DNA of 64,000 nt from Pseudomonas sp. HAR-UPW-AIA-41 (GTDB taxonomy: Bacteria > Pseudomonadota > Gammaproteobacteria > Pseudomonadales > Pseudomonadaceae). Both the position numbers and the translations under genes were made by a program. Each line of letters opens with the position of its first letter. Within the stretch, counting starts at the first letter, position 1. The stretch spans positions 62,001-126,000 of the forward strand of contig NZ_NSLB01000007.1 of NCBI RefSeq assembly GCF_002304225.1, read 5' to 3'. This document shows, piece after piece, positions 3,868 through 18,812 of this stretch. The notes below the pieces were generated by a model. The model worked only from the letters and a program-made list of their open reading frames with translations. It searched no databases and had not been told where the DNA came from.

Positions 3868-3908
3868 GTGGCCTCCCGTGAAATTTCCGCAGATCGAATT
3901 GAACTGCC

Positions 3909-3967: not shown

Positions 3968-3989
3968 TTTCTGAGCAGGATGCCCTCGC

Positions 3990-4862
3990 ATGAAGCGTAA
4001 GCAATCAATAACCAGCGTTCGTTGGGATCTGGCACTACGTTACCGATTGATTGAGACCATCGCGCTTTGGGAGGGGCGACTCACCACGGGGCATTTGATG
4101 CAGAGCTTCGGTATCAGCCGGCAACAAGCTTCGAAAGACATCAACAGCTATCTGGCTGACCACGCGCCCGGCAACTTGGACTACGACAAGCACATCAAAG
4201 GCTATGTACCCAGTCGCCGATTCAGCCCGCTGTTTATTGATGACAGTGCAAGTGCCTACTTGCATTTACTGAACCAAAACAGCGAGCGGGCACCACACAT
4301 CGAAGGCCTAGCGCTGGCTTACGCGCATACCGAAGTTCTGAATGTGCCGGATCGTTCGGTTAGGCCTGAAGTCTTGCGCCCGCTGTTGCGTGCCTGTCGT
4401 GAGGGACTTCGCCTGGAGTGCGACTATGTTTCTTTGGCCAACCCAGTGGCCGAAACACGCCTGATCGCACCTCACACCCTTGTCTATACCGGCATGCGCT
4501 GGCACGTGCGGGCTTACTGTGAAAAGAACCGCGACTACCGGGACTTTGTCTTGAGTCGCTTCAGGGGTGAGCTGGACGTGCTTGGTGAGTCCGACCAAGG
4601 CCGCGACGCGGATGATGGTTGGAATAGTGAGGTCGAAGTGGTGATAGAGCCTGATCCTCGGCTGAAACCCGACCAACGCAGCATCATCGAGTTGGATTTT
4701 GGGATGCAGGCTGGGCAGCTGAAAGTGGCGACTCGCGGGGCGCTGGTGCAATACGTGTTACAGCGCTATCAGATCGATCCGCACAAAGTGCAGACCAAGG
4801 CTAGCGCCCAACAGATTGTGGTGAGCAACCTCGATGAGCTGGGCGTTTGGCTGTACTCCTAG
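3990..4862 (+). CDS. WYL-domain transcriptional regulator, BrxR/CapW-like
   Basis: The 290-residue length and layout match the wHTH-WYL-WCX regulators that control BREX, CBASS and other defence loci. Residues 12-55 (RYRLIETIALWEGRLTTGHL, then FGISRQQASKDINSYL) form the winged helix. Residues 125-190 hold the WYL domain (LRPLLRACREGLRLECDYVS, APHTLVYTGMRWHVRAYC, FVLSRFRG). The C-terminal 80 residues are the WCX-type dimerisation region. The gene is divergent from the small coiled-coil gene, with a palindromic operator between them, and lies upstream of the retron on the same strand. By family analogy it would repress until a nucleotide or DNA-damage ligand is sensed. The regulated target here (retron, helicase pair or small membrane gene) is not determined. 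Confidence 0.85.
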   Translation: MKRKQSITSVRWDLALRYRLIETIALWEGRLTTGHLMQSFGISRQQASKDINSYLADHAPGNLDYDKHIKGYVPSRRFSPLFIDDSASAYLHLLNQNSERAPHIEGLALAYAHTEVLNVPDRSVRPEVLRPLLRACREGLRLECDYVSLANPVAETRLIAPHTLVYTGMRWHVRAYCEKNRDYRDFVLSRFRGELDVLGESDQGRDADDGWNSEVEVVIEPDPRLKPDQRSIIELDFGMQAGQLKVATRGALVQYVLQRYQIDPHKVQTKASAQQIVVSNLDELGVWLYS

Positions 4863-4872
4863 GGATGCGAGT

Positions 4873-5106
4873 TTATTCCGCCGGGCCGTAGGCAATTCGA
4901 GCGAGCAACCAAAGCACCCCGCCCAGGGTAGCAGCGAGCATTCCTGCATCAATTGAGCTGATCATCCACATCGGACACCTCCAGGTCGTGTTGATGATGA
5001 CACTACCGGCTTGTGTTGGAGTCATCGACCTGTCGACTTTTCGTACGTAAACGTTTGGGACAGGTATCGGTTGCGACGCAGTGATGTCCAATGCTGCCTG
5101 AATCAT
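4873..5106 (-). CDS. Possible 77-residue membrane protein
   Basis: A minus-strand frame with one hydrophobic stretch near the C-terminus (MLAATLGGVLWLLARIAYG), long enough to cross the membrane once. No strong ribosome site is visible and the frame is short, so it may be spurious. It is tail-to-tail with the WYL regulator. An internal start at MISSIDAGML would give a compact 31-residue single-span protein. Unrecognised. Confidence 0.25.
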   Translation of the reverse strand: MIQAALDITASQPIPVPNVYVRKVDRSMTPTQAGSVIINTTWRCPMWMISSIDAGMLAATLGGVLWLLARIAYGPAE

Positions 5107-5188
5107 CGGGTCAGATGAGGTTGAAATCTGCCCCTTGGCTCTGTGAAACTAGCCTGGCTGGGTGTTACCGCCCAGGTGCTCTTTAAAC

Positions 5189-5482
5189 ATGGTTATGAAT
5201 CGGGCTTGCAGTTGGTGGTTAGGAAACTGACCAGCTCTGGTGTTCTCCAGGGCTACCTTCGCCCCACAACCTGTCGTCACCCCGATGTGCTCAGCGCTGA
5301 GGGTCACGTGGCAAACGTCACGTGGTTATCAGCGAGGCTTCATCGGCTAAACGACAGTAAGGCGGCGGACGGCTTATCAATTCTTGATAAGCAGAACTGT
5401 GGTTTGTAGCGGCATCTTCAAAGTTCCATTCGGCCCGAAGTGCTTGGCGGCGGGGCAATTTCGCCCGTCTGGAGCAATAACC
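5189..5482 (+). ncRNA. Candidate retron msr-msd RNA region
   Basis: About 300 nt upstream of the 84-residue gene contain no convincing gene but several inverted repeats: CTCAGCGCTGAG at 5290-5301, two CACGTG copies at 5305-5310 and 5319-5324, a 9-bp stem with a 3-nt loop at 5372-5392 (GCTTATCAA / TTGATAAGC) nested inside ACAGT (5354-5358) / ACTGT (5396-5400), and GGGC/GCCC at 5453-5466. In many retrons the structured RNA precedes an effector gene and the RT, the order seen here. A 9-nt match between 5189-5197 (CATGGTTAT) and 5477-5485 (ATAACCATG) could be an a1/a2 stem, but a match of that size can arise by chance. The boundaries are guesses; folding and covariance are needed. Confidence 0.35.
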
Positions 5483-5737
5483 ATGAAACGTTTGAAGAAC
5501 GCTGTCGGTCGTACCGATCAGCACATGCACAACATTGAAGATGCCCGCCTCAAAGGTGGAACCGAGCCTCGCCAAGAGCCGGAACGTAAAGGAGTCAAAT
5601 GGCTGAAGAAGGTGGCAAAATTTGCTGCCAAAGTTGGCCTTCAGCGCCTTGCGGTATGGATCCTGGAAGACCCGGAATCCGCTTGGGATTACCTCCTCCT
5701 CAAGGTGGGGGAAATCCTTGGGGGAATCGCCTCATGA
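5483..5737 (+). CDS. 84-residue protein upstream of retron RT; possible membrane-active effector
   Basis: The ATG at 5483 is preceded by GGAG at 5471-5474. Residues 1-48 are polar and charged. Residues 49-72 (core KWLKKVAKFAAKVGLQ) form a strongly cationic amphipathic helix followed by hydrophobic residues (RLAVWILED), and the tail YLLLKVGEILGGIA is again amphipathic. This pattern resembles membrane-active peptides. The gene sits between a structured non-coding stretch and the retron-type RT, the position where several retrons carry their toxic effector. I know no family name for it. The effector role is inferred from position and composition only. Confidence 0.7.
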   Translation: MKRLKNAVGRTDQHMHNIEDARLKGGTEPRQEPERKGVKWLKKVAKFAAKVGLQRLAVWILEDPESAWDYLLLKVGEILGGIAS

Positions 5738-5765
5738 CGCAACAAACCACATCATTCGAATTCCA

Positions 5766-5794
5766 GTGAGGCCGATCCAGATGATCGGCCTCAC
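5766..5794 (+). promoter_or_regulatory. Perfect 12-bp hairpin between small gene and RT
   Basis: GTGAGGCCGATC (5766-5777) and GATCGGCCTCAC (5783-5794) pair perfectly around the loop CAGAT. It is followed by GTCATTTT, a poor U-tract, and lies 18 nt before the RT start codon. It may be a leaky terminator or attenuator that lowers RT expression, an mRNA processing site, or part of the retron RNA. Confidence 0.6.
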
Positions 5795-5812
5795 GTCATT
5801 TTGGGATAGGAC

Positions 5813-6862
5813 ATGGATGCTCCGCGTTACCCCTGCAAATCCATTCACAGCCTGAAGGCCCTCTCTTTGGCGCTTGGAGAGCCTGTCGAGCTGCTCCTGA
5901 GCCTCGCCAAACGCAGCTCAAATCTGTACCGCCATGTCCCACAAACCAAGAAAGATGGAAGCGTGCGACACACGTACGATGCTCACGAACCACTGAAGAA
6001 GGTTCAGCGCAAAATCGTCGATAAATTTCTGGCTCGGGTTCGCTACCCTGACTACCTCCACGGTGGGATCAAAGACCCCAATTCACGCCGGAGTATCTAT
6101 TCCAATGCCCGGATACATGGAAAGGCTAAAACAATCCTGCTTCAGGACATCAAGGACTTCTTTCCGTCCATCGGCGTGCAGCATGTGCAGCAGATTTTTT
6201 CCGGACTCTTCGGCTTTTCTGACGAGGTGGCTCAGGTACTGGCGTTGCTCACCACCCGCCACGGCGTCGTTCCCCAGGGCGCGAGCACCAGTGGTTATCT
6301 GGCCAACTTGGTGTTTTGGGATACTGAGCCTGCTCTAGTGGCTCGCCTGCACGCGCGAGGCCTTAAGTATTCCCGTTTTGCCGATGACATTACGATTTCT
6401 GCCATGACGACTCTGGAGCGTTCAGCACTGACGGGGTTGGTCGCGGCAGTGACCGACATGCTGGCGAAGAAAGGTTGTCAGCAGAAGCGCACCAAGCTGC
6501 ACATCCGCAAGCGCGGTCAATCGCTTTTGGCGAAGCCGAAAGTGGAGGCGGGCTATGAGCCGCTGACGGTCACTGGGCTTTCGGTCTTCAATGAGGCACC
6601 GGGTCTGCCGAAGGCAGAACGTAAAGCTATTCGTGCCGCGGTTAAGCAGGCGGAAGATCAAGCAAGCCAAGGCGCCAGTTGGGCACAGTTAGAACCGACG
6701 TTTCGCAGTGTGATGGGGCGTGTCGGACGTCTGATTGCTTGCGGTCATCCCGATGGGGAGCGCTACAAGCTGCGCCTCAAAGCTTTGAAGACGCGTTGTC
6801 AGGTGCCGCTTTTGGATCGCTATGCGGCAGCTGCGACTGGAGCGGATGTTCCAGTGGTTTAG
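5813..6862 (+). CDS. Retron-type reverse transcriptase
   Basis: A 349-residue RT that would copy part of its cognate structured RNA into multicopy single-stranded DNA. Motifs in order: NARIH (98-102), matching the retron NAxxH signature; DIKDFFPSI (112-120) of RT motif A; PQGASTSGYLANL (144-156) of motif B; the catalytic FADD box (189-192, F replacing the usual Y); and VTG (243-245), the retron signature after the catalytic core. No group II maturase, HNH or protease domain follows, so the size fits a stand-alone retron RT. The start at 5813 has AGG nearby but a close ribosome site; translation may be modest. It follows the 84-residue gene with a 75-nt gap containing a hairpin. The retron type and its RNA are not assigned. 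Confidence 0.88.
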   Translation: MDAPRYPCKSIHSLKALSLALGEPVELLLSLAKRSSNLYRHVPQTKKDGSVRHTYDAHEPLKKVQRKIVDKFLARVRYPDYLHGGIKDPNSRRSIYSNARIHGKAKTILLQDIKDFFPSIGVQHVQQIFSGLFGFSDEVAQVLALLTTRHGVVPQGASTSGYLANLVFWDTEPALVARLHARGLKYSRFADDITISAMTTLERSALTGLVAAVTDMLAKKGCQQKRTKLHIRKRGQSLLAKPKVEAGYEPLTVTGLSVFNEAPGLPKAERKAIRAAVKQAEDQASQGASWAQLEPTFRSVMGRVGRLIACGHPDGERYKLRLKALKTRCQVPLLDRYAAAATGADVPVV

Positions 6863-7171
6863 AGTTCCACTGTTAGCGCCTTGATCCCCACGCCTTCACA
6901 AAATCGCCCCACCGCCGTCAGCGAACGCCAGAGTCTCACCGGCTCGCGCCGCTCCGGTCTCGACCAGCGCCTGCAACGTCTCCTGCTCGATGGCTCTTTT
7001 CATGGCGCCCCCTGCTCTCGCGTCAAACCAGTCCCCAGGGTTCTGGTATAGCGCAGGGCCTCAGATCGGATACCGCCATCGGTCGAGTGGTCACCGGCAT
7101 GGGGTCAGGTGAGGGGGCGAATTAAACAAAACGTCCTATTACGTGCAGCCCTGCGGGTCATGCACGGGCTA
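6863..7171. other. 309-nt intergenic stretch after the RT
   Basis: Apart from the 35-codon minus-strand frame described separately, I see no gene, strong terminator or clear repeat between the RT stop and the end of the convergent ParB-like gene. Confidence 0.5.
6896..7003 (-). pseudogene. 35-codon frame, possible 5' remnant
   Basis: From the ATG at 7003, with AGGGGG just upstream, the frame reads MKRAIEQETLQALVETGAAR and stops after 35 codons at 6896. The opening looks like the N-terminus of short plasmid- or island-borne proteins but ends abruptly after AFADGGGAIL. It is either a tiny gene or the surviving 5' end of a gene truncated when the retron region was acquired. Confidence 0.35.
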
Positions 7172-8227
7172 CTACATGTCGAGATCGACTTCCAGGGCGC
7201 CGCGTCTCTCAACTGGGCTGGCGTTAGCCCCTTCGCCTACTGCCTTGATACGGGATTGGACGACTTCGCGGAACAGTCGGCTTTTGGTGGGATGCTTCGG
7301 CAGCTTTAACAGCGGACGTAATGCCACCAACTCGCCAGAGGGTTGCCCATCGGCTGCCTCTATCGAGCAGTACAACTCCGCCCGCTCAATCAGCCCTGCG
7401 CCAGTCCGAAGCTGTTTGATCAGTTGGGTGAAGTACTGTTCGAACAGCACCTCTAGCACGCCATGGTCGTCGAAATGCGCCAAGTACAGCCACTGCCCTT
7501 TGGGGTCATAAGGTGAACCGCCCCAATGCAGGCTCAGTTCGGCCAGGCGCTGGAGCACCACGTTAGCCCGCTCGAACACACACCAGATGTGCGGTGCCAC
7601 CGCGCGTTGCGACAGCGCGTGCTCATAGAGCTCCCGTGCTGCGGTGGCTGGATCGCGCCACGCACCCGGCTGAATGCATAGCACCACGCAGGTGAGCTTG
7701 CCTTTAGCGTTGTACACATAGTAACCACCCGGAGCGCCCAAGGTGCTGCGTCGACGTAGCGCGCGCCCTTGGTAGGCATCAAACGCGTACAGGTCTGAGG
7801 CGCTAAAAAAGTCTTCCATGCGCTGGTACAGCGCGTGTTTAGAGGCGGTCGCGCGGAGGGGGCGTGGAGCTTGGTTTTCCGCTGTGGTGGCAGCCTGATT
7901 GCGAACCAGTGCTTCGAGTTCATGCAATTTAAGCTGGTTGCTCAGTACCGCATGGAGTACTTCTTGCGCGACCTCGGGGGCAATCGATCCCAGCTTGGCC
8001 AGGCGCTCTAGGGGAGCATAACCGCAGTGCAGGCTGGCCCGGTCAAAGGCCGGTGTGAGTCCATCCAAAAAGCGCCCGGCGATTTTGATGCGAGACCAAG
8101 TTTTGGGTTTTAGGCCCAGTTGAGCGGCGACTTCCGGATCGCTGAAGCGCTGTTCGCGGGATTGCTGCTCCAAAGCGATGCCCTCTTGGTAGGTTTCATA
8201 CCAGCTGGTGTCGACGCGGCGGCCCAT
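7172..8227 (-). CDS. ParB/KorB-like HTH protein divergent from tnsA
   Basis: 351 residues. The N-terminal third (residues 25-105) reads like a ParB/KorB-type helix-turn-helix segment: SDPEVAAQLGLKPKTWSRIK, then GYAPLERLAKLGSIAPEVAQ and LKLHELEALVRNQ. The remaining 240 residues (GGYYVYNAKGKLTCVVLCIQ, LYLAHFDDHGVLEVLFEQYF) are not a family I recognise. It is transcribed away from tnsA across a 103-nt promoter region, a typical place for a regulator of transposition or an element-maintenance factor. That role is inferred. The start at 8227 (MGRRVDTSW) leaves a normal divergent spacer. Confidence 0.6.
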   Translation of the reverse strand: MGRRVDTSWYETYQEGIALEQQSREQRFSDPEVAAQLGLKPKTWSRIKIAGRFLDGLTPAFDRASLHCGYAPLERLAKLGSIAPEVAQEVLHAVLSNQLKLHELEALVRNQAATTAENQAPRPLRATASKHALYQRMEDFFSASDLYAFDAYQGRALRRRSTLGAPGGYYVYNAKGKLTCVVLCIQPGAWRDPATAARELYEHALSQRAVAPHIWCVFERANVVLQRLAELSLHWGGSPYDPKGQWLYLAHFDDHGVLEVLFEQYFTQLIKQLRTGAGLIERAELYCSIEAADGQPSGELVALRPLLKLPKHPTKSRLFREVVQSRIKAVGEGANASPVERRGALEVDLDM

Positions 8228-8268
8228 AGCGGTTTCTCTGCTTTAAGTTGGACGGTCATTTAAATTTG

Positions 8269-8297
8269 TTGACAACCCTAACAAGGTTTACTATGAA
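8269..8297 (+). promoter_or_regulatory. Sigma-70 promoter for the tns operon
   Basis: A consensus -35 TTGACA (8269-8274) is 17 nt from TATGAA (8292-8297), and a transcript starting near 8305 would include the AGGAG before tnsA. CATTTA (8257-8262) and TAAATG (8300-8305) flank the promoter as a possible operator for the divergent ParB-like protein. Confidence 0.65.
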
Positions 8298-8330
8298 TGT
8301 AAATGTCCTTTCTAGGAGATTCCACTAAAC

Positions 8331-9053
8331 ATGCCTTCCAGAGCCAAAAATCGTAAACCTGTCCGCGATGTAGCCAAGCGCGTTAAGCGTGGCCACAAGG
8401 CCTATGTCGTGCCAACACCGCGTAATGACGCGGGTTGGGTTGCGGGTCAAAGCTTTCTGGAGCGCAACCACCTGCTGCTGTTGAGCGTGCAAGTGGGAAT
8501 CAAGCGGCTGTGGGATCAGGCGGTGTGCATCGATCTGGACAACGAGACCCTGGTGGATCGCCTGGCGGACTTGCCCAAGCGTGGCGGCAAAGCTGTACGT
8601 CGCTACACCGCCGACAGTGCGTATGAGCGCGATGATGGTCAGCAGGGGGTGTGTGAGAGCAAGCCGAGTGCGTTTTTGGCGAAGCACGGCGAAAAACATG
8701 CACTGGCTAAGAAAATCCTCAACAAGTACGGCAAGTCGTTCACCACATTGACGGAAGAACAGTTCACCCCTGTTTTCATTTCCAACCTGGAAAACCTGCT
8801 GAAAGCCACGAGTGAGGGGCAACGACATCACGCCGAGTTGGCGATTGAAAAACTCCACAAGGCCCTGGTGCATCAGCAGCGTTGGTTGACCCAGGCCCTC
8901 AAGCAATCTGCCGGTCTATCGAACGCCGACATTTTCTTTGGGCTAGCCCATGGGGTGCTGTGTGCGGATCTGAGCCAGTCCCTTTTTGACAGCAACAGTT
9001 GGGTTGAAGCGGCGCATGGCAGCCTCGATCACCTAGTGTTCGTGGAGCTGTGA
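8331..9053 (+). CDS. tnsA: TnsA-like transposon endonuclease
   Basis: 240 residues. In Tn7, TnsA cuts the 5' ends of the element while TnsB cuts the 3' ends, giving cut-and-paste movement. The candidate catalytic residues are E44 (FLERNHLLLL), D95 (YTADSAYERD) and the ESK triplet at 109-111 (CESKPSAFL), aligning by eye with E, D and QVK of Tn7 TnsA. The last 100 residues are probably the TnsC/DNA-contacting part. It opens the operon, followed one nucleotide later by tnsB. Its assignment rests on this spacing and on the adjacent tnsB, tnsC and tniQ; overall similarity to Tn7 TnsA is low. Confidence 0.82.
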   Translation: MPSRAKNRKPVRDVAKRVKRGHKAYVVPTPRNDAGWVAGQSFLERNHLLLLSVQVGIKRLWDQAVCIDLDNETLVDRLADLPKRGGKAVRRYTADSAYERDDGQQGVCESKPSAFLAKHGEKHALAKKILNKYGKSFTTLTEEQFTPVFISNLENLLKATSEGQRHHAELAIEKLHKALVHQQRWLTQALKQSAGLSNADIFFGLAHGVLCADLSQSLFDSNSWVEAAHGSLDHLVFVEL

Positions 9054-9054
9054 T

Positions 9055-11010
9055 ATGGCTGTAGTCAATGACAGCTACCTCAGTCCACGACGCTACAAAG
9101 TCGGTGGCCTGGTTGCAGGCTGTGATGGCCGAAAGTATGTGATCGACACTATCCACACCAAAGCCCAGCAAGTGGTGCTGCTGGGCCCGGTGGGTGAAAC
9201 CTACGTTTATGAAAGCGAAGAGTTTCGCAATAAGGTCGCAGCGGGTGAGCTCCGACTGGTGGTGTGCAAGCAGAACTCAGATGGGATCGAAGAAATTTTC
9301 GAGCCCCGGAAACTTATGGCCAATGAACGTAAAGCGCTGGAGGAGCGTCAGCAGTACATTGAGATAATTCTGGAATACATCGATAACAGCACTTGGGAGT
9401 ATATCTACAAGAAAATCAAGGAAGAGTATGGCGGTAAACGCAGAATTCCAGGTCGGCGGAGTATTGAAAGATACTGGCAAATCTATAAGCAGGCTAAGTC
9501 GCCAAGTTGTCTGGCTCCTAAGTATTCGCTACGAGGCGTACACCGCTCGTTGTCGCTTGATCCACATGTTGAAGATATCATCATCAATGTGCTGGAAGAG
9601 AAATACTGCAATAGCTCAGGTTTCAGTGTAAAAGATATTGTCGAAACCATTAATATTCGCTGTGATAAAAAGTCTGCTGAGCTGAATATTGAGTTGGGCG
9701 GAGTTTCACGGCGCGCAGTTGGTCGATTTATTGTAGGTCTCAATATTAAGAAATTGAAAGGCCGGCTGAACGAAAAAACTTTTCGTTTGATCATGCGCGA
9801 TGCCTTGCACTTTTTCGATGTGCAAGAGCCTTATGCGCGCGTGGAGTTGGATTCAACCGTATTGGATATTTTGATTGTCGATGCGTTCGGTAACATCATC
9901 GGCAGTCCGACCTTGTACGCGATGATCGATACGGCAACACAGACGATTGTCGGCATCTTCCTCACCATTCTGCCGGCCAGTCAGGTCGGCGTGCTGCAAG
10001 CTCTCCAGTTTGCTTTTTCGCCTAAAGGCGAGGCGTTTCGTCAACAGCACGGTTGCATTCACTTGTGGCCTGCTCCAGCTGATATTCGTACCCTGGTAAT
10101 GGATAACGGCGCCGATTGCCATGGCCCGATGGTGGTCAAAGCCGCACGTTACTTGTCGATGACGCTCGAATACTGCATCGCCGGCGCCCCCTACCAAAAA
10201 CCCTTTATTGAACGGTTTTTTGGCACCTTGCATACGATGTTGATCAAAAAGCTGCCGGGAGCAAAATTCTCGCATGACAAGCGTGAAGACCATGCCTTGG
10301 AGAATGCTGAGAAAACGGCAAAACTCACGCTCGATGAGTTGTATTCTCTGATCATCCGCTGGATCACTGACACATATCATCTCAAGGTTAACGACCGCCT
10401 GACGAGCAAATTCAACTGTGCTTGTTCGCCGGTTCAGGCACTAGAGATATTGAGTCAGAAATATGTGCTATTTCCTGCTCCCTCAGCCGAAGAGTTGCTG
10501 GAAGCCTGCCGTCATCATCTAGAAGTAAAACTCAATGTGACGCGCGAAGGCCTCAACTATCAATGCCAGCAATATCAGAGTGAATATATTTCTGATCTCT
10601 ATAAGACCAATGGCAAGCAGAAAGTTGAAGCGTATGTGAATCCCCTCGATTGCAGCGCAATTCATGTTTTCGATAGCGACAGCAAAACCTGGCGTGTGGT
10701 GCCCAATAAAAATCCGCATATGCCGGCGATGAGCTTCGAACAGGCGAAATATTACCGTAGCCAGAGCTACAAAACGGATCTTGAGATTTCAAGAGCCGAG
10801 CATGTGCTGAATCAACATCAGATTATCGAAGACGCTCATTCAACGAAGAGCAGAACGAGTCGTATTAATCGTAATCGTAAGGCCGAACGCGAAATCGAGC
10901 GCGCCAAAGCAGCGATCACGACAGCCTCTCAGCAGCCGCTGGCCGACGCGCCGCTGGTATCGACGGATCCCATCGTGGCAGCAGTAAAACCCCACCGGAG
11001 GAAAAAGTAA
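9055..11010 (+). CDS. tnsB: TnsB-like DDE transposase
   Basis: 651 residues. This is the RNase H-fold recombinase that binds the terminal repeats and joins the 3' ends to target DNA. The DDE triad is visible: D266 (ARVELDSTVLD), D350 (LVMDNGADCHG) and E386 (PFIERFFGTLH). The N-terminal 230 residues contain helix-turn-helix segments (PGRRSIERYWQIYKQ, GGVSRRAVGRFIVGLNIKK) for binding the end repeats, and a Mu-type C-terminal beta-barrel region follows the core (VEAYVNPLDCSAIHVFD). A GGAG precedes the ATG. The last codon overlaps the tnsC start by one base, indicating coupled translation. The stretch from about 9,280 to 10,700 is richer in A+T than its neighbours, consistent with horizontal origin. 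Confidence 0.95.
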   Translation: MAVVNDSYLSPRRYKVGGLVAGCDGRKYVIDTIHTKAQQVVLLGPVGETYVYESEEFRNKVAAGELRLVVCKQNSDGIEEIFEPRKLMANERKALEERQQYIEIILEYIDNSTWEYIYKKIKEEYGGKRRIPGRRSIERYWQIYKQAKSPSCLAPKYSLRGVHRSLSLDPHVEDIIINVLEEKYCNSSGFSVKDIVETINIRCDKKSAELNIELGGVSRRAVGRFIVGLNIKKLKGRLNEKTFRLIMRDALHFFDVQEPYARVELDSTVLDILIVDAFGNIIGSPTLYAMIDTATQTIVGIFLTILPASQVGVLQALQFAFSPKGEAFRQQHGCIHLWPAPADIRTLVMDNGADCHGPMVVKAARYLSMTLEYCIAGAPYQKPFIERFFGTLHTMLIKKLPGAKFSHDKREDHALENAEKTAKLTLDELYSLIIRWITDTYHLKVNDRLTSKFNCACSPVQALEILSQKYVLFPAPSAEELLEACRHHLEVKLNVTREGLNYQCQQYQSEYISDLYKTNGKQKVEAYVNPLDCSAIHVFDSDSKTWRVVPNKNPHMPAMSFEQAKYYRSQSYKTDLEISRAEHVLNQHQIIEDAHSTKSRTSRINRNRKAEREIERAKAAITTASQQPLADAPLVSTDPIVAAVKPHRRKK

Positions 11011-11960
11011 TGACGAATCTGGCGAAAAAGGTGGTGCGTTCAGAGGGTATTTTCCATGCACATATGCTGCGAGCGTATGAGCGCGGCCTTGCAGTGATTG
11101 CGCAGGCTCAGGTGCCGGCAGATAAACGTGAGCCTCAGATTTTCCCGTTGCTGGGGCCTGCGGGAGTGGGAAAGTCGGAGACGATTGCAGCTTGGTGTGC
11201 AGATTACCCTCAGCAGCAGGATGCACAAGGCAAGATCGTTAAGCCCGTGATCCATGTGATCTGCCCAGTAGAGCCGAATCAGCGATCCATTGCCTTGAGC
11301 ATCATTCGAGCTCTGCAATGCCGAGTGTTGAGCAGAAGCAGTACCTCGGACGTCGTCGATCAGGCCATGGGGCAACTGAAAGTCGCCGAGGTCAATACGA
11401 TCATCTTCGATGAAGTCCAACATCTGGCTGAAAACCTCCGCGCCGAGAAAATGAAAATCGCGGTGAATTTTCTGCAATACATCCTCGAAACGTCTAAAGC
11501 CTCGTTGATCCTGGTGGGGTTGCCGACGGCTCAGCGCTTTATCAACTTCGAATCAGCGTTTCAGCGGCGCTGCCTGGCAACGGAGCTGCTTTATCCCTAT
11601 GCCTGGGCCAGCACTTCTCACCGTCAGGACTTTGCCGATGGGGTGGCGATGATTGCGGAGGCGTATCGCGAGCACGGCTGGAAGACCGTGCTAGATGACC
11701 CTGACTCGCTGAAACCTCTGTATGCCGCCTGTATGGGACGGTTTGGTGTGCTTATCGACTTTCTCAGCCACGCCGAGACCGATAACTCCCGCAAATTGAT
11801 CGACATGAAATGCCTGGCCAAGGCCTACGCACATGGCATTAACCATCAGCCGTTCTCAGGTAATCCGTTCTCGCCTAGCACTCAGATCTCGGAGCAGGAG
11901 CTGAATGCGGAATATGTGCGAGTGCTCCAGCAGGCGCACTTGCCGATTCCTAAGTTGTAA
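11010..11960 (+). CDS. tnsC: TnsC/TniB-like AAA+ ATPase
   Basis: 316 residues. It is the ATP-dependent matchmaker linking the target selector (TniQ) to the transposase and imposing target immunity. Walker A is GPAGVGKS (49-56) and Walker B is IIFDE (131-135); a sensor segment ILVGLPTAQRF and the arginine pair FQRRC follow. Length is close to TniB (about 300) and much shorter than Tn7 TnsC (about 555). A GGAGG ribosome site lies within the 3' end of tnsB. Confidence 0.94.
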   Translation: MTNLAKKVVRSEGIFHAHMLRAYERGLAVIAQAQVPADKREPQIFPLLGPAGVGKSETIAAWCADYPQQQDAQGKIVKPVIHVICPVEPNQRSIALSIIRALQCRVLSRSSTSDVVDQAMGQLKVAEVNTIIFDEVQHLAENLRAEKMKIAVNFLQYILETSKASLILVGLPTAQRFINFESAFQRRCLATELLYPYAWASTSHRQDFADGVAMIAEAYREHGWKTVLDDPDSLKPLYAACMGRFGVLIDFLSHAETDNSRKLIDMKCLAKAYAHGINHQPFSGNPFSPSTQISEQELNAEYVRVLQQAHLPIPKL

Positions 11961-11972
11961 GGAGGCGACGCC

Positions 11973-13850
11973 ATGTCATTTTTTCAGAGTGTCAGCCTCA
12001 AGCCTGGTGAAAGCTTGAACTCCTTGATCATGCGCAAAGCCGAGCTAAATGGTTACGGCACGGCGCATGCACTGCTGGCTGACGTTGGCATGACCATGAA
12101 GGTCTGTTACTCGGCGGAAGAGCTAGAACTGCTCCGAGAGTGCTTTGAGCTGGCTGAGCATGACCTGACGCCAGTGAGTGCAGGCCAGGCGCCCTACCTG
12201 GGACAAAAAGCGTTTTTGCGCAGCCAATGTTCGCCTGTCTGCCCTCAATGCCTGGCTGATGAGGGCGTGGCACAAGAGGCGTGGTCTCATGTGCTGGTAA
12301 TCGCCTGCCATAAGCATCAGACAGAATTGCTCAGCCAATGCCCGCAGTGTGCAGAGCCGATCTGTCTGACGCGACGGGCGTTGATGCACTGTGACTGCGG
12401 CTATGAGTATTGCCATGCCATCAGTGAGCCTGCGTCAGCGTTTTCTGCTGGGCTTTCAGCCCTGTTGGAGAATGTGGATGCACCAAACCGGCAGGCGCTA
12501 CCCCTGCCCCTTCACCAACTGAGCTTTGAGCCTTTGCTACCCGCTTTTTTGCTGATGCTGGCCAAAGCGCAGGGGCGCATGAGTGATCAGCTTCCCCCAA
12601 AATTTCGCTTTGCTGCCAGTTCCTCTTTTGAAGACTCCGTGGCGATGGTGGGGTATTTGGAGTCGCTGTTGGGTGAGTGGCCTCAGCGTTTCGATGACGT
12701 TTTGGAAGACCACCTCTTTCAGGGTGAAGGGGTCAGCTTGGCCGGGCGAATCGGTACTTGGTACAGGGAGCTTTTCAGTACCTATGCGGCGCCGAGCTTT
12801 GATTTTCTGCGTGATCGTTTAAAGGCACAGATCGCTGAACACTTCGATGGGAGGTTGGGTGTTAGCACTCGCGGCCTGATGTTCGGCGCTGACAACGCAG
12901 ATTCCATGCATTGGTTCGCTGCCGCCGAGGCTGCAAGGCTTCTGGGTGTGGCTCCCGATATCTTGGCGAACCTGGTGATTACACAGCAGATTGATGGGCG
13001 AGTGCATCAGGAGGGCAAGAGTCGTTTCGTTGCTGTTCATCGCTCAACGCTCGACCAGATTGCCGCTGATCGAGCGAGCTATCTCTCTGCGACGGAAGCC
13101 CGTCAGCGCCTGAACGTATCGAAAAATTTCTTTGAGCGGTTTATCCAGGCTGGTGGGTTGCGCCGCTACAAGCGCAACGAGCGCCCCGTACTCGTGGCCG
13201 GCGAATTCCGAGTCGCAGATGTCGATCAGGTGATTCAGCAACTAGTGGGAAGTGTCCGCAAAAAGCCCAGAGCAGCACAGTTGATCGGCATTCAAGACAT
13301 CTCCGCCAAGCATGGCATTTCTAACAGCAAGATCGTGGGCATTTTGCAGGACATCCTCCAAGGCATTGTGCAGCCCGTAGGTCATATCAGTTCACTCGTG
13401 GGGCTGGCCGGGTTGCAATTTGACAAGGTGCAGATCGCGAAGCGGGTTCGCGATAACGATCCTGACGTTGTGCTGAGCGTCAGCGAGCTGGCCAAGGTGT
13501 CTGGCTGGAAAGCCGGGGTGATCAAAAAGTGGATTCAGGGTGGATACCTCAAAAGCATCGTTCAGACGCATGGCAAATCAACACGCGATGTCATCCCCTT
13601 GTCGGCTCTGATGCAGTTTCTGCTGACGTACTGCCCCACCGCTGAGCTCTCCAAGCAGCTCAAGACCAAGACCCTGTACCTGACCAAGGCGTGGCGTCCC
13701 GCCAAGATTGAAGTCATCGCGCCCCCTCAGCAATCCGTGGGTGGCCTACGCGGTTTGCTGGTGCGAAATGCTGATCTTGCCCGCGCTGCGCAGCTGCGCA
13801 AACCCACTATCCGAGAGCTCGCTGACCAGTTGGAGGAGTCCCCATGCTGA
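11973..13850 (+). CDS. tniQ: TniQ/TnsD-like target-selection protein
   Basis: 625 residues. The N-terminal 150 residues are a TniQ domain with zinc ligands: C86, C90 and C93 (CSPVCPQC); C112, H113 and H115; C123 and C126 (CPQC); C140 and C142. A long C-terminal part follows with at least three MerR/HTH-like segments: FAAAEAARLLGVAP, YLSATEARQRLNVSKNFF and VLSVSELAKVSGWKAGVIKK. This long form resembles TnsD, which reads a fixed chromosomal attachment site, more than the short TniQ used by CRISPR-guided elements, and no Cas genes are present. An AAGGAGG site precedes the ATG. The protein probably directs the element to the gyrB-plsC junction (inference). Confidence 0.9.
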   Translation: MSFFQSVSLKPGESLNSLIMRKAELNGYGTAHALLADVGMTMKVCYSAEELELLRECFELAEHDLTPVSAGQAPYLGQKAFLRSQCSPVCPQCLADEGVAQEAWSHVLVIACHKHQTELLSQCPQCAEPICLTRRALMHCDCGYEYCHAISEPASAFSAGLSALLENVDAPNRQALPLPLHQLSFEPLLPAFLLMLAKAQGRMSDQLPPKFRFAASSSFEDSVAMVGYLESLLGEWPQRFDDVLEDHLFQGEGVSLAGRIGTWYRELFSTYAAPSFDFLRDRLKAQIAEHFDGRLGVSTRGLMFGADNADSMHWFAAAEAARLLGVAPDILANLVITQQIDGRVHQEGKSRFVAVHRSTLDQIAADRASYLSATEARQRLNVSKNFFERFIQAGGLRRYKRNERPVLVAGEFRVADVDQVIQQLVGSVRKKPRAAQLIGIQDISAKHGISNSKIVGILQDILQGIVQPVGHISSLVGLAGLQFDKVQIAKRVRDNDPDVVLSVSELAKVSGWKAGVIKKWIQGGYLKSIVQTHGKSTRDVIPLSALMQFLLTYCPTAELSKQLKTKTLYLTKAWRPAKIEVIAPPQQSVGGLRGLLVRNADLARAAQLRKPTIRELADQLEESPC

Positions 13851-14176
13851 CGCTACTCAAGAAAGCCAAGCTCGCCGATGCCCTGTTGGATGATTACCCC
13901 GAAGTGATCACAGGCTATGTCGTCGATGCGAAGGTCGTATCGGGGTGTTTGGTTGGGGTTGCCTACAAGACCTGGGGCTATGCCAGAGGTGAAAAACTGA
14001 TCTCCGGCAGCATCACGCAGGTCATCGAGTACGGCCAGCGTTGGCTGATCAAGACCGGCGAGCAAGATTGCCTGGTCGTCGTGAATTTTTCGCGTGGCGG
14101 TCGACAGTCGCTGCTGCATCTCATCGATCTTTTTGATTCCGCGAGCCTTGCTCATTCGCGTCGTTGTCTGCACTGA
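13844..14176 (+). CDS. 110-residue protein following tniQ
   Basis: The frame overlaps the end of tniQ by 7 nt (ATG at 13844), so it is translationally coupled to the transposition operon. It is mostly beta-type sequence with alternating hydrophobics (YVVDAKVVSGCLVGVAYKTW, QRWLIKTGEQDCLVVVNF). Unrecognised. Its conserved-looking coupling suggests it belongs to the transposon core rather than to cargo. Confidence 0.65.
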   Translation: MLTLLKKAKLADALLDDYPEVITGYVVDAKVVSGCLVGVAYKTWGYARGEKLISGSITQVIEYGQRWLIKTGEQDCLVVVNFSRGGRQSLLHLIDLFDSASLAHSRRCLH

Positions 14177-14188
14177 GGAGACACGGAA

Positions 14189-14638
14189 ATGAAGCCTTCC
14201 AAGAAACGCTTTAGTCGCAGTGACATCGAAGCCAGTCCGGAAAGCGCGTGGATTGTCGATGTTGCCATTCTCAGCACGACCAAGGGCCCGTTGCATTGCG
14301 GGCTCGTTCAAGATCTCAAGACCAGGCGGGTGCTGGGGTGGTCGACAGCGCTTAATGCTGATCCGACGCTGCTGATGCGGGCTATCGAACTGGCTTGTGA
14401 AAGGCATGCCAGGACGCGCCCGACCAACCTCTTTCTCTATCGGATCAGCGAGAGCATCGCCCCAGATGTAGTTGCATCGTTGGTATGCCGGGAGTTTCAG
14501 CTTCGTTACATCGATATCCCGAATCACAGACTGACTTTATCGATGGATCGCGTCTGGGGGGAACTTCAACGTCGTTTCAGTCAGTCGCTGTCAACGCCCG
14601 CCCAGTTTCAAGGCGACCAAGACGATCTGGATGACTGA
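14189..14638 (+). CDS. Integrase-core-like protein lacking catalytic residues
   Basis: 149 residues with the outline of an rve/IS3-type RNase H fold: WIVDVAIL (21-28; first Asp kept at D24), the beta-hairpin GPLHCGLVQDLKTRRVLGW (33-51), the helix LLMRAIELACERHARTRPTN (61-80), then LFLYRISESI where family members have an HSDRG-type second Asp, and MDRVWGELQRRF where they have the final Glu helix. The second Asp is absent and the third position is doubtful, so the protein is probably catalytically dead. GAGGAG before the ATG indicates active translation. A structural or targeting role in the transposition complex is possible. Alternatively it is a degraded insertion-sequence fragment, but the intact frame and operon position argue against that. 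Confidence 0.6.
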   Translation: MKPSKKRFSRSDIEASPESAWIVDVAILSTTKGPLHCGLVQDLKTRRVLGWSTALNADPTLLMRAIELACERHARTRPTNLFLYRISESIAPDVVASLVCREFQLRYIDIPNHRLTLSMDRVWGELQRRFSQSLSTPAQFQGDQDDLDD

Positions 14639-14648
14639 GGGCCGTGCC

Positions 14649-15050
14649 ATGGACGATCTCCAAACGATTACTGACCTGCTCTATCGCCCTGGCGAGCCCA
14701 TGCGTGGATCAACTATGACCGATGATCAGGCGCTGGCCTTTGCGCGCGAGCACTGTTGGTTCACGGAGTTTTGCCTGGTTCGTCAGTGGCTGTGGATCGA
14801 TCTCGATGTGAGCGAAGCCCAGCGTGTTGAGCTGGAAAAAACGCGGCGGCAGCCGGTGATCCTTTATGCCCATAGCGTTATCTACGATTCGGCTCGCAGG
14901 TGGGATGTGGGCGATGTCGTGCGCACTTCTCCGCTCTCGTTGTTCGAGGAGGGATTCCTATTCCGTACGTTGAACTCGACCTATGTGCTGCTGGGGGAGG
15001 GCCAGCGTAAGCGGGCGACCTTGGAAACCGTGGGCCGTATTCGTTTCTGA
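14649..15050 (+). CDS. 133-residue hypothetical protein of the tns operon
   Basis: I chose the ATG at 14649 because GAGGG lies 8 nt upstream; a second ATG at 14631 overlaps the previous stop. The sequence (AREHCWFTEFCLVRQWLWIDLD, VILYAHSVIYDSARRWDVGD, RTLNSTYVLLGEGQRKRATL) resembles a family of short Pseudomonas proteins that I believe is DUF6957, but I cannot confirm the name. Conserved aromatics and the compact size suggest a small globular domain. Function unknown. Confidence 0.65.
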   Translation: MDDLQTITDLLYRPGEPMRGSTMTDDQALAFAREHCWFTEFCLVRQWLWIDLDVSEAQRVELEKTRRQPVILYAHSVIYDSARRWDVGDVVRTSPLSLFEEGFLFRTLNSTYVLLGEGQRKRATLETVGRIRF

Positions 15051-15141
15051 GCCTGGGCCCCTTGGCTGGGGATTCGAACCGGGCTTCGCATAACACGTCA
15101 TGGGGTAAATGGTCGCCCGCTCAACGTCACGGAGGTGCGCG

Positions 15142-16281
15142 ATGTGGGAGCAATTTGATCGAGACAAACTGTTTGCCGAGGTGTGGGCCGAACCGGTGCA
15201 ATCGGTGGCCAAACGCTACGGGCTGTCGGATGTGGGCTTGAAGAAGCTGTGCAGTCGCTTGCAGATTCCGACCCCTCCCCGTGGGTATTGGGCCAAGCTG
15301 AAGGCAGGAAAAGCAGTCCCTGCTCCCCCAACGCTACCGGTCTTCAAAGGCAATCCTCGTCACCTTCACCGGTTTGTCGCGCAACCGGTCAAACCATCTG
15401 GTGAGGCCCCACCACCGGATGCGCGGTTGCTGTCGGTTCTGGCGTTTGAGCGTGATCCCGCTAATCACATCCGGGTACCGAGTCGGGGAACGCACTGGCA
15501 TCCCCTGGTGGCCGCTACCCGCGATGCGCTCAGCAGTGGCTACAAAGACAACCGAGGGATACCGATTCCGGGTGGTCGTGGATTCGATATCGCCGTCTCG
15601 GCTGGCCAGCGCAAGCGGGCATTTCGGGTGCTCAATACGCTGGTCAAAGCCTTGGAAAAGCGTGGTTATAGCCTGCGCCCTGGTGATCGGCACATGCAGG
15701 TCGAGATGTTCGGTAGCCGCTTCACGCTCGGTATCTATGAGCCCACCAAGCGCTCTAACTATGTCCCTACGGAGAAAGAGCTGACGGCCAAGAATCGTGG
15801 CGAATATAGCTATTGGCCGCGCTACCAGTACACCCCTGCGGGAACCCTCGAAATCCGTTGCGGCGATGGCTATGACGCGGTGGTCAAAGACAAGGTGCGG
15901 CAACCCATCGAGGAGCAGCTCAACCTCGCCGTGGAGGTGATGGTCGGGCGGGCGATTAGCAGGCTCCGCTACCAGGAAGAGCAAGAACGCCTGGCGGCGA
16001 TCCGCGAAGAACGGCGCCGGGCGGCGCTGGCGCAGCAAGCGATTCAGGACGCTGAAAAGCAGAAGCTGGCGCAGTTGATTGAGGATGCGCAGCGCTGGCA
16101 GCAGGCAGAAACTATCCGGGCGTTTTTACGCGCCCAAGAAGCCCATGGCCAGCAGATGGGTGGTTTGTCCGAACAGCAGCAGACGTTTCTGGCTTGGGCT
16201 CGGGCTAAAGCGAACTGGCTGGATCCCTTGGTAATGCAGCCAGACGCCATTCTGGATCAGCAGATAACGATTCCTTACTGA
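15142..16281 (+). CDS. 379-residue HTH protein, last gene of the tns operon
   Basis: The ATG at 15142 follows GGAGGTG at 15131-15137; an earlier start at 15109 lacks such a site. Residues 1-50 read as a helix-turn-helix (LFAEVWAEPVQSVAKRYGLS, DVGLKKLCSRLQIPTPPRGYW), a module often seen on mobile elements. The middle is a mixed alpha/beta region. Residues 270-345 are a long charged helix (YQEEQERLAAIREERRRAAL), likely a coiled coil. The stop overlaps the convergent neighbour by 7 nt. Its place at the end of the tns transcript suggests an element-encoded regulator or accessory factor. Confidence 0.7.
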   Translation: MWEQFDRDKLFAEVWAEPVQSVAKRYGLSDVGLKKLCSRLQIPTPPRGYWAKLKAGKAVPAPPTLPVFKGNPRHLHRFVAQPVKPSGEAPPPDARLLSVLAFERDPANHIRVPSRGTHWHPLVAATRDALSSGYKDNRGIPIPGGRGFDIAVSAGQRKRAFRVLNTLVKALEKRGYSLRPGDRHMQVEMFGSRFTLGIYEPTKRSNYVPTEKELTAKNRGEYSYWPRYQYTPAGTLEIRCGDGYDAVVKDKVRQPIEEQLNLAVEVMVGRAISRLRYQEEQERLAAIREERRRAALAQQAIQDAEKQKLAQLIEDAQRWQQAETIRAFLRAQEAHGQQMGGLSEQQQTFLAWARAKANWLDPLVMQPDAILDQQITIPY

Positions 16282-17228
16282 TCCCTCTCTTCGGGCATCG
16301 GGGGGCCAATGTACGCGCCACGCAGTGTCATCCGGTCAAAGCTATAGACATGGGCGTGTGGGCTTTCGACGCAGCGACCTACCAGGGGTAGTTGATGGTC
16401 TGGCTTGCCTGGTTGGAGCTCGATGGTGCTGCCGCAAACGGGGCAGTCAGCCGAAAAGCGCACCAGGCGCGTCCAGCGGTAATTGTCATGCCGGAACATT
16501 TCCAGCTCGCAGCTGGTTTCGCTGAACGCGGATACCCAGTCGGGGGCTTTGACGACGCAGTCGTCAACGACGCGGAACCAGGGGGTGTAAATCTCCCGCC
16601 AGATGAATACAAACCCGGCCAAGGTAAGTCCCAGAGTGATGAGGCCTCCCATGGTGAGGGGGCCATCACGTTGGCTCAGGGCGAACAACATGATCGCGAG
16701 GAGCAGTATCCAGAATGCGCTGCCCAGAAGGAGGGAGCTCAGAAAGCTGAGACCTCTGAAGCTCAGGTTGCGCATTTCGCCACCCTTTAGGAATAGGCGA
16801 GCGGCGAGTGATGTCTTGATCGCGCCCTTGGCGGAGCGGCGGTAGGCGACGGTCGAGGAAGGCGCAATTTCTGGTGTCTTCTCCCCGTCATTTTGGGGTT
16901 CCAGTTCCAGCCAATACAGGCTCACCACCCCCCTGCCGCCACCTGGCGTATAGCCAAGTTGCAGGCGCGGCCCATCAGATTCCGGCTGGGCCAGCTTCAG
17001 GGTGCGCCGCAGGATCGCGATTTTCGGAACCCAATCCTTAGGGTCTGAGTCTTTCTCCGTCGCATTACCGCAGCCGGCGAGCAGATTCCTAGCCTCGAAG
17101 GTCAGTTTCTCTTGGCTGTCAGGGCGGTCGAGGCAGCTATTGGTCATGAATAGCAGGATCTCGTACGCCCGTCCGCGCGAGGGATTCTCTGTGAGCTGAT
17201 GCTTTAGACGCTGAAGTGCTTCGAACAT
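16275..17228 (-). CDS. 317-residue membrane protein with zinc-ribbon-like tail
   Basis: Two adjacent hydrophobic segments (FLSSLLLGSAFWILLLAIML and TMGGLITLGLTLAGFVFIW) at about residues 156-210 predict two transmembrane helices with both termini in the cytoplasm. The C-terminal domain contains CPVCGSTIEL and a later RCVESPHAH, possible metal ligands. The N-terminal 90 residues are soluble and helical. It is convergent with the tns operon and divergent from the CoiA-like gene. Two-span membrane proteins are common effectors in defence loci, but no partner is obvious here. Confidence 0.65.
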   Translation of the reverse strand: MFEALQRLKHQLTENPSRGRAYEILLFMTNSCLDRPDSQEKLTFEARNLLAGCGNATEKDSDPKDWVPKIAILRRTLKLAQPESDGPRLQLGYTPGGGRGVVSLYWLELEPQNDGEKTPEIAPSSTVAYRRSAKGAIKTSLAARLFLKGGEMRNLSFRGLSFLSSLLLGSAFWILLLAIMLFALSQRDGPLTMGGLITLGLTLAGFVFIWREIYTPWFRVVDDCVVKAPDWVSAFSETSCELEMFRHDNYRWTRLVRFSADCPVCGSTIELQPGKPDHQLPLVGRCVESPHAHVYSFDRMTLRGAYIGPPMPEERDQ

Positions 17229-17356
17229 GCAATTCCCTATGCCCTTGATTTATATGGATTTAAAACCTGGATTTCCGGAATCCGGCCATATCTGGAGGTT
17301 TTTTCTGCCGCTTATTTTCAGTCTTGAGACCTTCTTAACTCCAGCGGGAAAGTCTC

Positions 17357-18520
17357 ATGACCATGACGATTGCAGTAGATGCCAGTGGCCGAGTTGTTTC
17401 GATTAACGAAGTAGTACGCGGTCTGGCTTGTGGCTGTCGGTGCCTTGAATGCAATGAGGTCGTTGTTGCGCGCCGAGGACTACAGCTGAGGCACCATTTC
17501 GCCCATGCTTCAAAAAAAGATCCCTGTGAGGTCACGCCAGAAAGCTTTCTGCACCGATACGCCAAGCAGGTGGTGAGAGAAAGCTTAGGCTTGCAGTTGC
17601 CTCCGCAGCCGGGACATCACCCAGATTCTGAAGACCAGAGCTCCTGGTGGGATTTTGAATCCGTTAAAGAAGAGCCCTGGATGGGTGATTTCAGGCCTGA
17701 TCTTGTCGCTGAGCTGACGGATGGCCCTCTGTTGATTGAGTTTGCCTGCACCTCGTTTGTTGATGAGGAGAAACTGGAGCGGATTAAGCAGTTGGGCATT
17801 CGCACTGTCGAGATCGACTTGAGCGGCTTGGTCGTAACGCCCTCGTCGGATGGTTTGCTGGAGATAAGAAGGGTCATCCTGCATGACGTGACCTTAAAGC
17901 AGTGGCTTTATCCTCTCCCGGAAGTTGTTGGCGGCGATCCATTGCTGTCTGTTGACAGCGACGTTCAGCAGGGGCCCAGCGTGCACTTGCCTGAGCGGCA
18001 GCGGTTCACGATTCAGGGCTTTTGGGTCGATCTGAGGGTGCTTGATTTTGGTTCTGTGGTGGTGCGTTCAGTGGCGTTCAGTCCAGCTATCGCTGAGCTG
18101 CTCAAGCGACTGTCGCGAAAATACGCAGGTCGCTATGTGGCCAAGTATAGGAACTGGATGTTTCCTGCTTGGGCAAAGGCTGCGCTTCAGGATGAGCTTG
18201 AGGCACTGGCCGATGGTGATAGCTCTGGTTTGAGTCGAGTGGGTGATCCGTGTTCACAGGAGCTAGTCGCATCGCTCACGACCGAGAGTCAGCCGGACGT
18301 TAATGGTTACCTCGATGCACGACTTATTCTCCGGCAATACCGAGAAGGCCTTGCTCCGGCATGTCTGCCTTACGGAGAGTTCAAGGCTCGGCACTATGGC
18401 ATTGGTTTGGACTGTGATGCGTTGGAAGATTTCTTCCGGGACAGTGGCGTTGAGCTTCTTTGTGTTGAGGTGGTTCGGATAGCTGGTAAGGCTGATTTCG
18501 TTTACGTATTGCGTCGATGA
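17357..18520 (+). CDS. CoiA-like nuclease-type protein
   Basis: 387 residues. Residues 20-52 hold a small zinc-binding motif (CGCRCLECNE) followed by RHHFAHAS, the arrangement at the N-terminus of competence protein CoiA relatives. A PD-(D/E)xK-like segment follows (DFRPDLVAELTDGPLLIEFA, then LERIKQLGIRTVEIDLSG), consistent with a restriction-endonuclease fold. The C-terminal 200 residues are unassigned. CoiA relatives occur on mobile elements and in competence loci and are thought to act on DNA. The gene stands alone downstream of a short promoter region, and a 9-bp hairpin (18530-18559) follows it. Confidence 0.7.
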   Translation: MTMTIAVDASGRVVSINEVVRGLACGCRCLECNEVVVARRGLQLRHHFAHASKKDPCEVTPESFLHRYAKQVVRESLGLQLPPQPGHHPDSEDQSSWWDFESVKEEPWMGDFRPDLVAELTDGPLLIEFACTSFVDEEKLERIKQLGIRTVEIDLSGLVVTPSSDGLLEIRRVILHDVTLKQWLYPLPEVVGGDPLLSVDSDVQQGPSVHLPERQRFTIQGFWVDLRVLDFGSVVVRSVAFSPAIAELLKRLSRKYAGRYVAKYRNWMFPAWAKAALQDELEALADGDSSGLSRVGDPCSQELVASLTTESQPDVNGYLDARLILRQYREGLAPACLPYGEFKARHYGIGLDCDALEDFFRDSGVELLCVEVVRIAGKADFVYVLRR

Positions 18521-18529
18521 TTGGGTCTT

Positions 18530-18559: not shown

Positions 18560-18654
18560 GCAATTGACTTCGGTTTTCGCAGCTTTGAAAAAATCCTTTT
18601 CTGCACTCCGTGCATTTTTACGATGGGGCCTCAACCACCCATAGGAGCTCCACC

Positions 18655-18798: not shown

Positions 18799-18812
18799 TC
18801 AGAGTGCCATGG

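Follow-up and report, generated by a model that had tools for sequence, protein, structure and literature searches.

The window analysed here is a stretch of 64,000 nucleotides from Pseudomonas sp. HAR-UPW-AIA-41 and forms part of a 156,524-bp contig (C56). The subject is a block of four open reading frames (ORFs) in this window, tnsA, tnsB, tnsC and tniQ, together with the mobile element that carries it; all features of the locus are listed in Table 1. According to the original prediction the block is complete and has intact catalytic motifs, and this was borne out: the four ORFs are where they had been placed, and the motifs were invariant in the alignments. TnsC matched the Pfam family TniB above the cut-off (3.4e-20), and TnsB matched the solved TnsB of Tn6677 (9y7b, 1.4e-26). 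With TnsA and TnsB only Pfam matches below the cut-off were obtained, and TnsA, encoded in one operon with TnsB and TnsC, was identified from its conserved residues and its position. Invariant positions were E44, D95 and K111 of TnsA (13 aligned rows), D266, D350 and E386 of TnsB (41 rows) and the Walker A sequence GPAGVGKS and DE134-135 of TnsC (43 rows), some genes having entered these alignments twice through overlapping fetched loci. The named residues are taken to be catalytic on the basis of the known motifs. Judged by its sequence, the element is a Tn7-like transposon.

TniQ matched the Pfam family of the same name above the cut-off (1.5e-10), and the paired Cys/His residues of its core were invariant in 22 sequences. 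The predicted length of 625 residues and the tail with multiple helix-turn-helix (HTH) segments were also found: Pfam HTH_17 matched residues 370-404 above the cut-off, and an AlphaFold2 model built from 9 sequences (mean pLDDT 73.9, pTM 0.43) suggests about five modules, at approximately 314-367, 370-425, 437-492, 499-553 and 554-608, with boundaries set by eye from the secondary structure. In structure comparisons the core resembled Vibrio cholerae TniQ (6lnd, Z 16.2). The module 499-553 resembled DNA-bound BldC (Z 8.2 over 51 residues, root mean square deviation 1.6); its scores with BldC and MerR regulators (Z 6-8) are weak values by themselves, with which the HTH_17 match of 370-404 agrees, and the other modules were hardly probed by this comparison. 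The tail had been regarded as unusual, which did not hold, since every part of the family shares it. Long C-terminal regions with several HTH segments have been described for TnsD-like proteins (PMC10293859), therefore the TniQ tail is of a known kind.

A partner-end search from the putative right end gave a transposon of 34,825 bp (contig 51073-85897), whose left end is 10,927 bp left of the window edge and whose right end, contig 85897, is position 23897 of the window. Both termini begin TGTCGACGGGC, and they are flanked by a GATTG duplication at contig 51068-51072 and window 23898-23902. The left end contains three direct TWATTGKCAT-type repeats inside about 61 bp, and the right end four TnsB-like repeats spanning about 147 bp, so that TGT...ACA ends, several TnsB-type repeats and a 5-bp duplication are all present. 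These ends and the duplication rule out positions 8331-13850 as the whole element. The stop codon of gyrB is 6 bp before the left end, and gyrB is preceded by dnaA-, dnaN- and recF-like ORFs (named by eye). The insertion is thus downstream of gyrB, and neither at glmS, the site of Tn7 proper, nor at parE. The original prediction had located the break at a gyrB-plsC junction: gyrB is indeed the left and a plsC-type gene the right neighbour of the element, but gyrB lies outside the window, about 19 kb from tnsA, and what separates the two genes is 34.8 kb long.

At E <= 1e-3, 37 of the 398 genomes of the genus have a relative of TniQ, and the window's own is counted among them. The gyrB gene was located in 33 of these; left out were the four weakest matches (G086, G141, G192 and G271). 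A Tn7-type end follows the gyrB stop in 31 of the 33, at a distance of 4-7 bp in 30 genomes and 12 bp in one. In 27 of the 33, tniQ shares contig and strand with gyrB and lies downstream of it. In G076, G376 and G006 tniQ is on another contig, yet gyrB carries an end of the fitting type, and in G069 the gyrB-proximal end is present with the TniQ match elsewhere, in another clade. A matching right end with an identical 5-bp duplication was detected in 21 of the 24 genomes searched; the search was unsuccessful in G128 (one spurious match), G245 and G069. The duplicated 5 bp vary between cases, therefore the position and not the sequence of the cut site is fixed, as is likewise stated for Tn7 in part of PMC2918618. 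In the gyrB family a single site behind a conserved gene is used in a fixed orientation. The prediction of a site-specific chromosomal target other than glmS was thus supported, whereas the assumption that the attachment site is uncommon was not, at least within the genus.

The TniQ tree of the genus, which comprised 22 of the 31 proteins, showed three groups matching three types of ends: TGTCGAYGGGC in group 1 (the window's element), TGTAGGTGGG-like in group 2 and TGTAGGTTCAC-like in group 3. Groups 2 and 3, and groups 1 and 2 jointly, are well supported clades; group 1 alone is weakly supported (87/76 and 72/57). The TniQ selectors of the gyrB series are 18-62% identical to that of the window. 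In group 3, tniQ lies 4.4-4.8 kb from the gyrB-proximal end, whereas the tns block of groups 1 and 2 lies deep in the element, with tniQ 13.6-39.8 kb from this end (ten plus ten elements in which both ends were located, 17.9-64.1 kb in length). The central position of the tns genes in the window's element, with tnsA about 19 kb from the left end and tniQ 10 kb from the right end, could mean that the tns block is a separate transposon nested in an older island, to which the ends at gyrB do not belong. This is extremely improbable, because tniQ is well inside in all ten group 1-2 elements with both ends found, the type of end tracks the TniQ group, and no third match to the 24-bp end (with up to 5 mismatches) was found across 119 kb of the contig.

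Scanning the genus with the end pattern gave positives in 73 of 398 genomes, compared with 3 genomes for the reversed control pattern. Twenty-two of the positives belong to the TniQ set and 51 are additional; the locus in one of the latter, G013, does not look like gyrB. Inspection of 20 of the 51 by eye, 18 of them over 12 kb (the contigs of G212 and G270 end after about 1 kb), revealed 14 clear ends, one doubtful end (G018) and five sequences that were not ends, and 73/398 was for this reason rejected as a prevalence. At many of the additional gyrB loci sampled (L165-L183) a transposon-like end is present without a complete tns set in the adjoining 12 kb. These ends are perhaps remnants of earlier insertions.

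Wider searches were made with a profile of 22 TniQ sequences. Within the family, 12 of 198 genomes reached 1e-20. Apart from the window's genome and one found before, ten were new: nine from other genera, and G524 from the genus itself. All ten have tniQ on the strand of gyrB, 4.6-24.4 kb downstream of it, and an end 5-14 bp past the gyrB stop. Within the order there were 23 matches among 293 genomes at 1e-15, including the window's genome, and nine of the other 22 were checked. In G624 and G709 tniQ is downstream of gyrB, and G674 has an end 11 bp past the gyrB stop with tniQ on another contig. At the level of the class 7 of 274 genomes matched, again including the window's genome; of the four checked, G965 has tniQ downstream of gyrB and an end 3 bp past the stop, and the other three are not at gyrB. 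A scan of the genome contigs with a single protein revealed no relative. The homologous elements were therefore found at gyrB in 31 of 33 genomes of the genus, in 10 of 10 new cases of the family, in two linked cases from other families of the order and in one of the class. Adjacent short and long TniQ-domain ORFs occur in the gyrB-linked elements of G624, G709 and G965 (L129, L131 and L133), and such a pair may represent an additional targeting pathway.

In other genera, too, relatives whose TniQ tail matches are thus behind gyrB, and several that share mainly the TniQ core are behind its paralogue parE. In G606, G643, G746 and G842 tniQ is 15-28 kb downstream of parE, in three of the four on the opposite strand, and the TniQ matches do not extend beyond profile position 347. 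In G804 parE is followed by an end, and tniQ is on another contig; in G722 tniQ is near neither gyrB nor parE. The end after the parE stop is plain in G643, G606, G804 and G746. The case for parE is weaker than that for gyrB, because G842 has no plain end and the 7-12 kb fetched around the TniQs of G643, G606, G746 and G804 contained no recognisable relative of the window's TnsB or TnsC; right ends and duplications were checked only at gyrB. Loci from four genomes in one family of the order (L148, L150, L153 and L156) have Tn7-type ends about 5-8 bp past the parE stop with hairpin terminators inside, and G606 has a second TniQ (L152), which is very similar to the parE-linked one and is encoded far from both gyrB and parE. 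The idea that the gyrB homers form one clade apart from the parE homers was not retained: the best tree nests the latter among the former, although a single clade was not rejected (p-AU, from the approximately unbiased test, 0.096). Seven rows were omitted from this tree (two short TniQs, G722, G842, G1081, G985 and G372), and a larger TniQ tree gave long-branch warnings. On a conjugative Pseudomonas putida plasmid (L220, 4159-9626) there is a tnsA-tnsB-tnsC-HTH set whose similarity to TniQ is distant (25.6%, covering 74% of the query); the plasmid is a possible vehicle for such elements.

The distribution of the insertions also bears on the possibility that the gap behind gyrB is merely where insertions survive, near the origin and harmless, with no reading of the sequence by TniQ. 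It would fit that the space before the gyrB terminator is safe, that the locus is always present, and that in a number of genomes an end stands alone, no tns genes having been found in its vicinity. Selection by survival would be hard to reconcile with the fixed spacing of 4-7 bp between stop and insertion in 30 of 31 cases, a single tniQ orientation in all 27 linked cases, three types of ends using the gyrB position and the location of relatives sharing mainly the core behind parE; we regard it as quite improbable. As related elements occupy this position in many Pseudomonas-type bacteria, gyrB seems to serve transposons of this kind as a common safe landing site.

When the flanks of the window's element were joined, gyrB, a short spacer and a terminator hairpin were obtained, as in the empty sites of relatives. 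In this comparison the gyrB tail was readable at 23 of 30 loci. As the joined flanks rebuild the junction of gyrB and its terminator, the element separates the gene from this terminator. Most of the relatives examined in the genus carry a terminator of their own just inside the gyrB-proximal end: by home-made scoring, a hairpin followed by a T-run starts 56-100 bp inside this end in 29 of 31 elements (not found in G099 and G069). By comparison, distal ends gave 1 of 21, and windows placed at random inside the same DNA gave 10 of 300. It is as if the element's terminator replaced the displaced one, and it would presumably protect the expression of gyrB. Tn7 reportedly lies in the glmS terminator, to judge from the title of a 1986 paper, and a precedent in Tn7 is possible. 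At parE-proximal ends the terminator test was passed in 4 of 4 cases, three of them near-copies.

These results suggest that the window holds part of a Tn7-like transposon whose TniQ/TnsD-type protein very probably homes to the 3' end of gyrB. Site, spacing, orientation, duplication and the link to TniQs sharing the tail can be read from the genomes compared, as far as sequence comparison reaches. In the proposed mechanism the HTH tail of TniQ would bind conserved coding DNA near the end of gyrB, as TnsD does in glmS, while the core would recruit TnsC; TnsC would then bring TnsA and TnsB bound to the repeat arrays of both ends, and the element would be excised and would enter, in one orientation, a few bases beyond the gyrB stop, with duplication of 5 bp. 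With a spacing like that of Tn7, TniQ would read the DNA about 20-55 bp before the gyrB stop (encoding a conserved RRDFIESNAL-type peptide). In the 45 sites compared, of which 44 have an end and the other is that of G709, codon positions 1 and 2 of this stretch are for the most part invariant.

Several observations weigh against this interpretation. G279 and G372, whose TniQ matches are the two weakest of the 33, have empty gyrB sites, and in none of the 20 additional end-pattern genomes inspected was a complete tns set found, with remnants in two. The G709 match starts at residue 207 and contains an internal stop, and its locus has no clear end. Matched duplications were tested within the genus only. 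The TniQ model is of medium confidence, and direct binding of TniQ to gyrB DNA would follow by analogy only. Third codon positions at the gyrB end vary among the 45 sites, therefore the selector must tolerate variation. Concerning the terminators, seven of the 29 hairpins are one identical sequence, so the 29 are not independent events, the remaining hairpins differing between and within groups; and of 13 further gyrB-proximal ends only 6 passed the test (6 of 12 in other genera; G524 of the genus failed).

Another element protein might read gyrB, with TniQ serving only as a bridge. Relatives of the ParB-like gene, orf110 and the DUF6957 gene recur beside the tns genes in 7 (next to tnsA), 10 and 8 of 13 group 1-2 relatives, respectively, and TnsF of Tn6022 provides a precedent (PMC10293859, in part). 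Group 3 elements home to gyrB as well, and in their fetched parts no match to the three genes was found; moreover, none of the three was seen in all group 1-2 elements (some fetched in part), and the long multi-HTH tail of TniQ is like that of the direct-binding TnsD. A separate reader is therefore quite improbable, and recognition by TniQ itself is the explanation we prefer.

A broader proposal would be that the gyrB- and parE-homing TniQs constitute one selector family that has specialised on the conserved 3' ends of the genes for type IIA topoisomerase B subunits and has switched at least once from one paralogue to the other, and that gene-proximal terminators restoring termination evolved repeatedly. 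This is tentative and falls somewhat short of being probable; the terminator counts outside the 31 elements and the strands of the parE-linked TniQs make it slightly less likely. If it is true, the terminator makes the insertion nearly invisible to the host. The gyrB-proximal terminator offers a simple, testable account of harmlessness behind an essential gene. With gyrB, a gene present in nearly all bacteria would be added to the landing sites of Tn7 type, the large natural series of selectors that appear to act on the same gene end could be compared with the parE-linked set to study target choice by multi-HTH TnsD-type proteins, and the site could serve for single-copy insertion in Pseudomonas.

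The gyrB element is like Tn7 in having TnsA, TnsB, TnsC and a selector with a TniQ core, in entering directly behind the stop of an essential gene, in a single orientation, and in its 5-bp duplication and repeat arrays of 3 and 4 sites. It differs in its target, in the MerR-type multi-HTH tail and in the central position of the tns genes in groups 1 and 2. It also differs in distance: Tn7 TnsD binds the last 36 bp of glmS and insertion occurs about 25 bp downstream, some 20 bp past the stop (passages of PMC2918618), whereas the gyrB elements are mostly 4-7 bp past the stop. Tn7017/EasCAST, a type I-F3 CRISPR-associated transposon (CAST) with a parE site targeted by TniQ (PMC11406308, in part), shares TniQ-directed homing behind the gene of a type II topoisomerase B subunit. 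The window's element targets gyrB instead, and no Cas family was found among the 23 of its ORFs that were scanned with Pfam. The core of the parE-linked TniQs detected in the present analysis is shared with the gyrB family, and their tail is different, the profile matches ending at residue 347 or earlier. The I-F3 CASTs Tn6677 and Tn7016 provide the closest solved structures for the TniQ core (6lnd) and TnsB (9y7b), but they are RNA-guided, and their solved TniQ chains of about 360-430 residues are too short for a five-module tail. Tn6022, which is Tn7-like and uses a single chromosomal site with TniQ and TnsF, differs in needing TnsF and in inserting into comM, according to parts of PMC10293859 and PMC11406308; a TnsF-like gene was not searched for in the present element.

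No report of gyrB as a Tn7-like attachment site was found in the literature searched (titles, beginnings of abstracts and term counts), and gyrB is absent from the main texts, supplements aside, of PMC10293859 and PMC8649781. In the relevant part of PMC12452197 gyrB is a phylogenetic marker. The heavy-metal island of P. putida W619 starts at coordinate 7447 (PMC3056050, in part), which would fit a place just behind gyrB. What is known, then, is the Tn7-like nature and the TnsD-type homing; the gyrB site was not found in the literature searched, and the gyrB-proximal terminator is a new observation.

Table 1. Features of the gyrB-linked transposon and its right flank (window positions).
Feature	Position	Strand	Remarks
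In-window part of transposon	1..23897		TGTCGACGGGC ends on both sides, GATTG duplication
Retron-type reverse transcriptase (cargo)	5813..6862	+	best PADLOC model RT_VI; 84-aa ORF upstream at 5483-5737
Divergent gene	7172..8227	-	ParB-like by eye only; no Pfam/PHROGs match, NCBIfam below cut-off
tnsA, endonuclease	8331..9053	+	ORF, 240 aa; E44, D95, ESK109-111 motif
tnsB, DDE transposase	9055..11010	+	ORF, 651 aa; D266, D350, E386
tnsC, AAA+ regulator	11010..11960	+	ORF, 316 aa
tniQ/tnsD-type target selector	11973..13850	+	625 aa; TniQ core, paired Cys/His, multi-HTH tail
TniQ residues 314-608	12912..13796	+	about five tandem winged-HTH (MerR/excisionase-like) modules; model, HTH_17, BldC match
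orf110	13844..14176	+	overlaps tniQ stop; relatives near tniQ
Degenerate integrase-core (IS3-like) ORF	14189..14638	+	seen in none of the other group 1-2 elements
DUF6957 protein	14631..15050	+	relatives near tniQ
390-aa protein	15109..16281	+	relatives in 7/13 group 1-2 relatives
NYN nuclease + OST-HTH/LOTUS protein (cargo)	22507..23301	+	
rsmX small RNA	23403..23511	+	inside element, 386 bp from right end
Right (distal) end	23752..23897	-	TGTCGACGGGC terminus and four TGGCAT-type TnsB-like repeats
Target-site duplication GATTG	23898..23902		second copy just after gyrB
Displaced native intrinsic terminator of gyrB	23917..23946	+	by eye; joined flanks vs relatives' empty sites
plsC-type acyltransferase	24073..24855	-	first host gene past right end

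All counts of accessory genes are lower bounds, since some elements were fetched in part. Relatives of the 390-aa protein also occur at two non-gyrB loci (L071 and L155). The integrase-core ORF was discarded as conserved machinery, its sole other match in the loci scanned being a longer ORF in G040. With PHROGs, the accessory genes gave only transposase-like matches, on the 149-aa ORF. Among the cargo, the retron-type reverse transcriptase has relatives in other gyrB elements, those of G087, G317 and G037, the last with the relative split in two. Left of the window (L002, 7589-18964) the cargo comprises a NERD-kinase (PglW-like), a type III-like restriction and methylase pair and an SNF2 helicase (BrxHI/DrmD-like), which suggests an anti-phage set.

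The rsmX copy is the only rsmX match of the genome over the Rfam cut-off. It was dismissed as a marker of the target, as it lies inside the element and no rsmX copy was found near gyrB in the other four genomes searched; nor did Rfam detect rsmX in 15 right-side loci and 3 relatives. An RsmV small RNA was found outside the G325 element, on the host side and some 3 kb past its right end (L084, 11644-11834). The product of rsmX is a small RNA that titrates RsmA/CsrA, and such an RNA on a mobile element would be unusual cargo.

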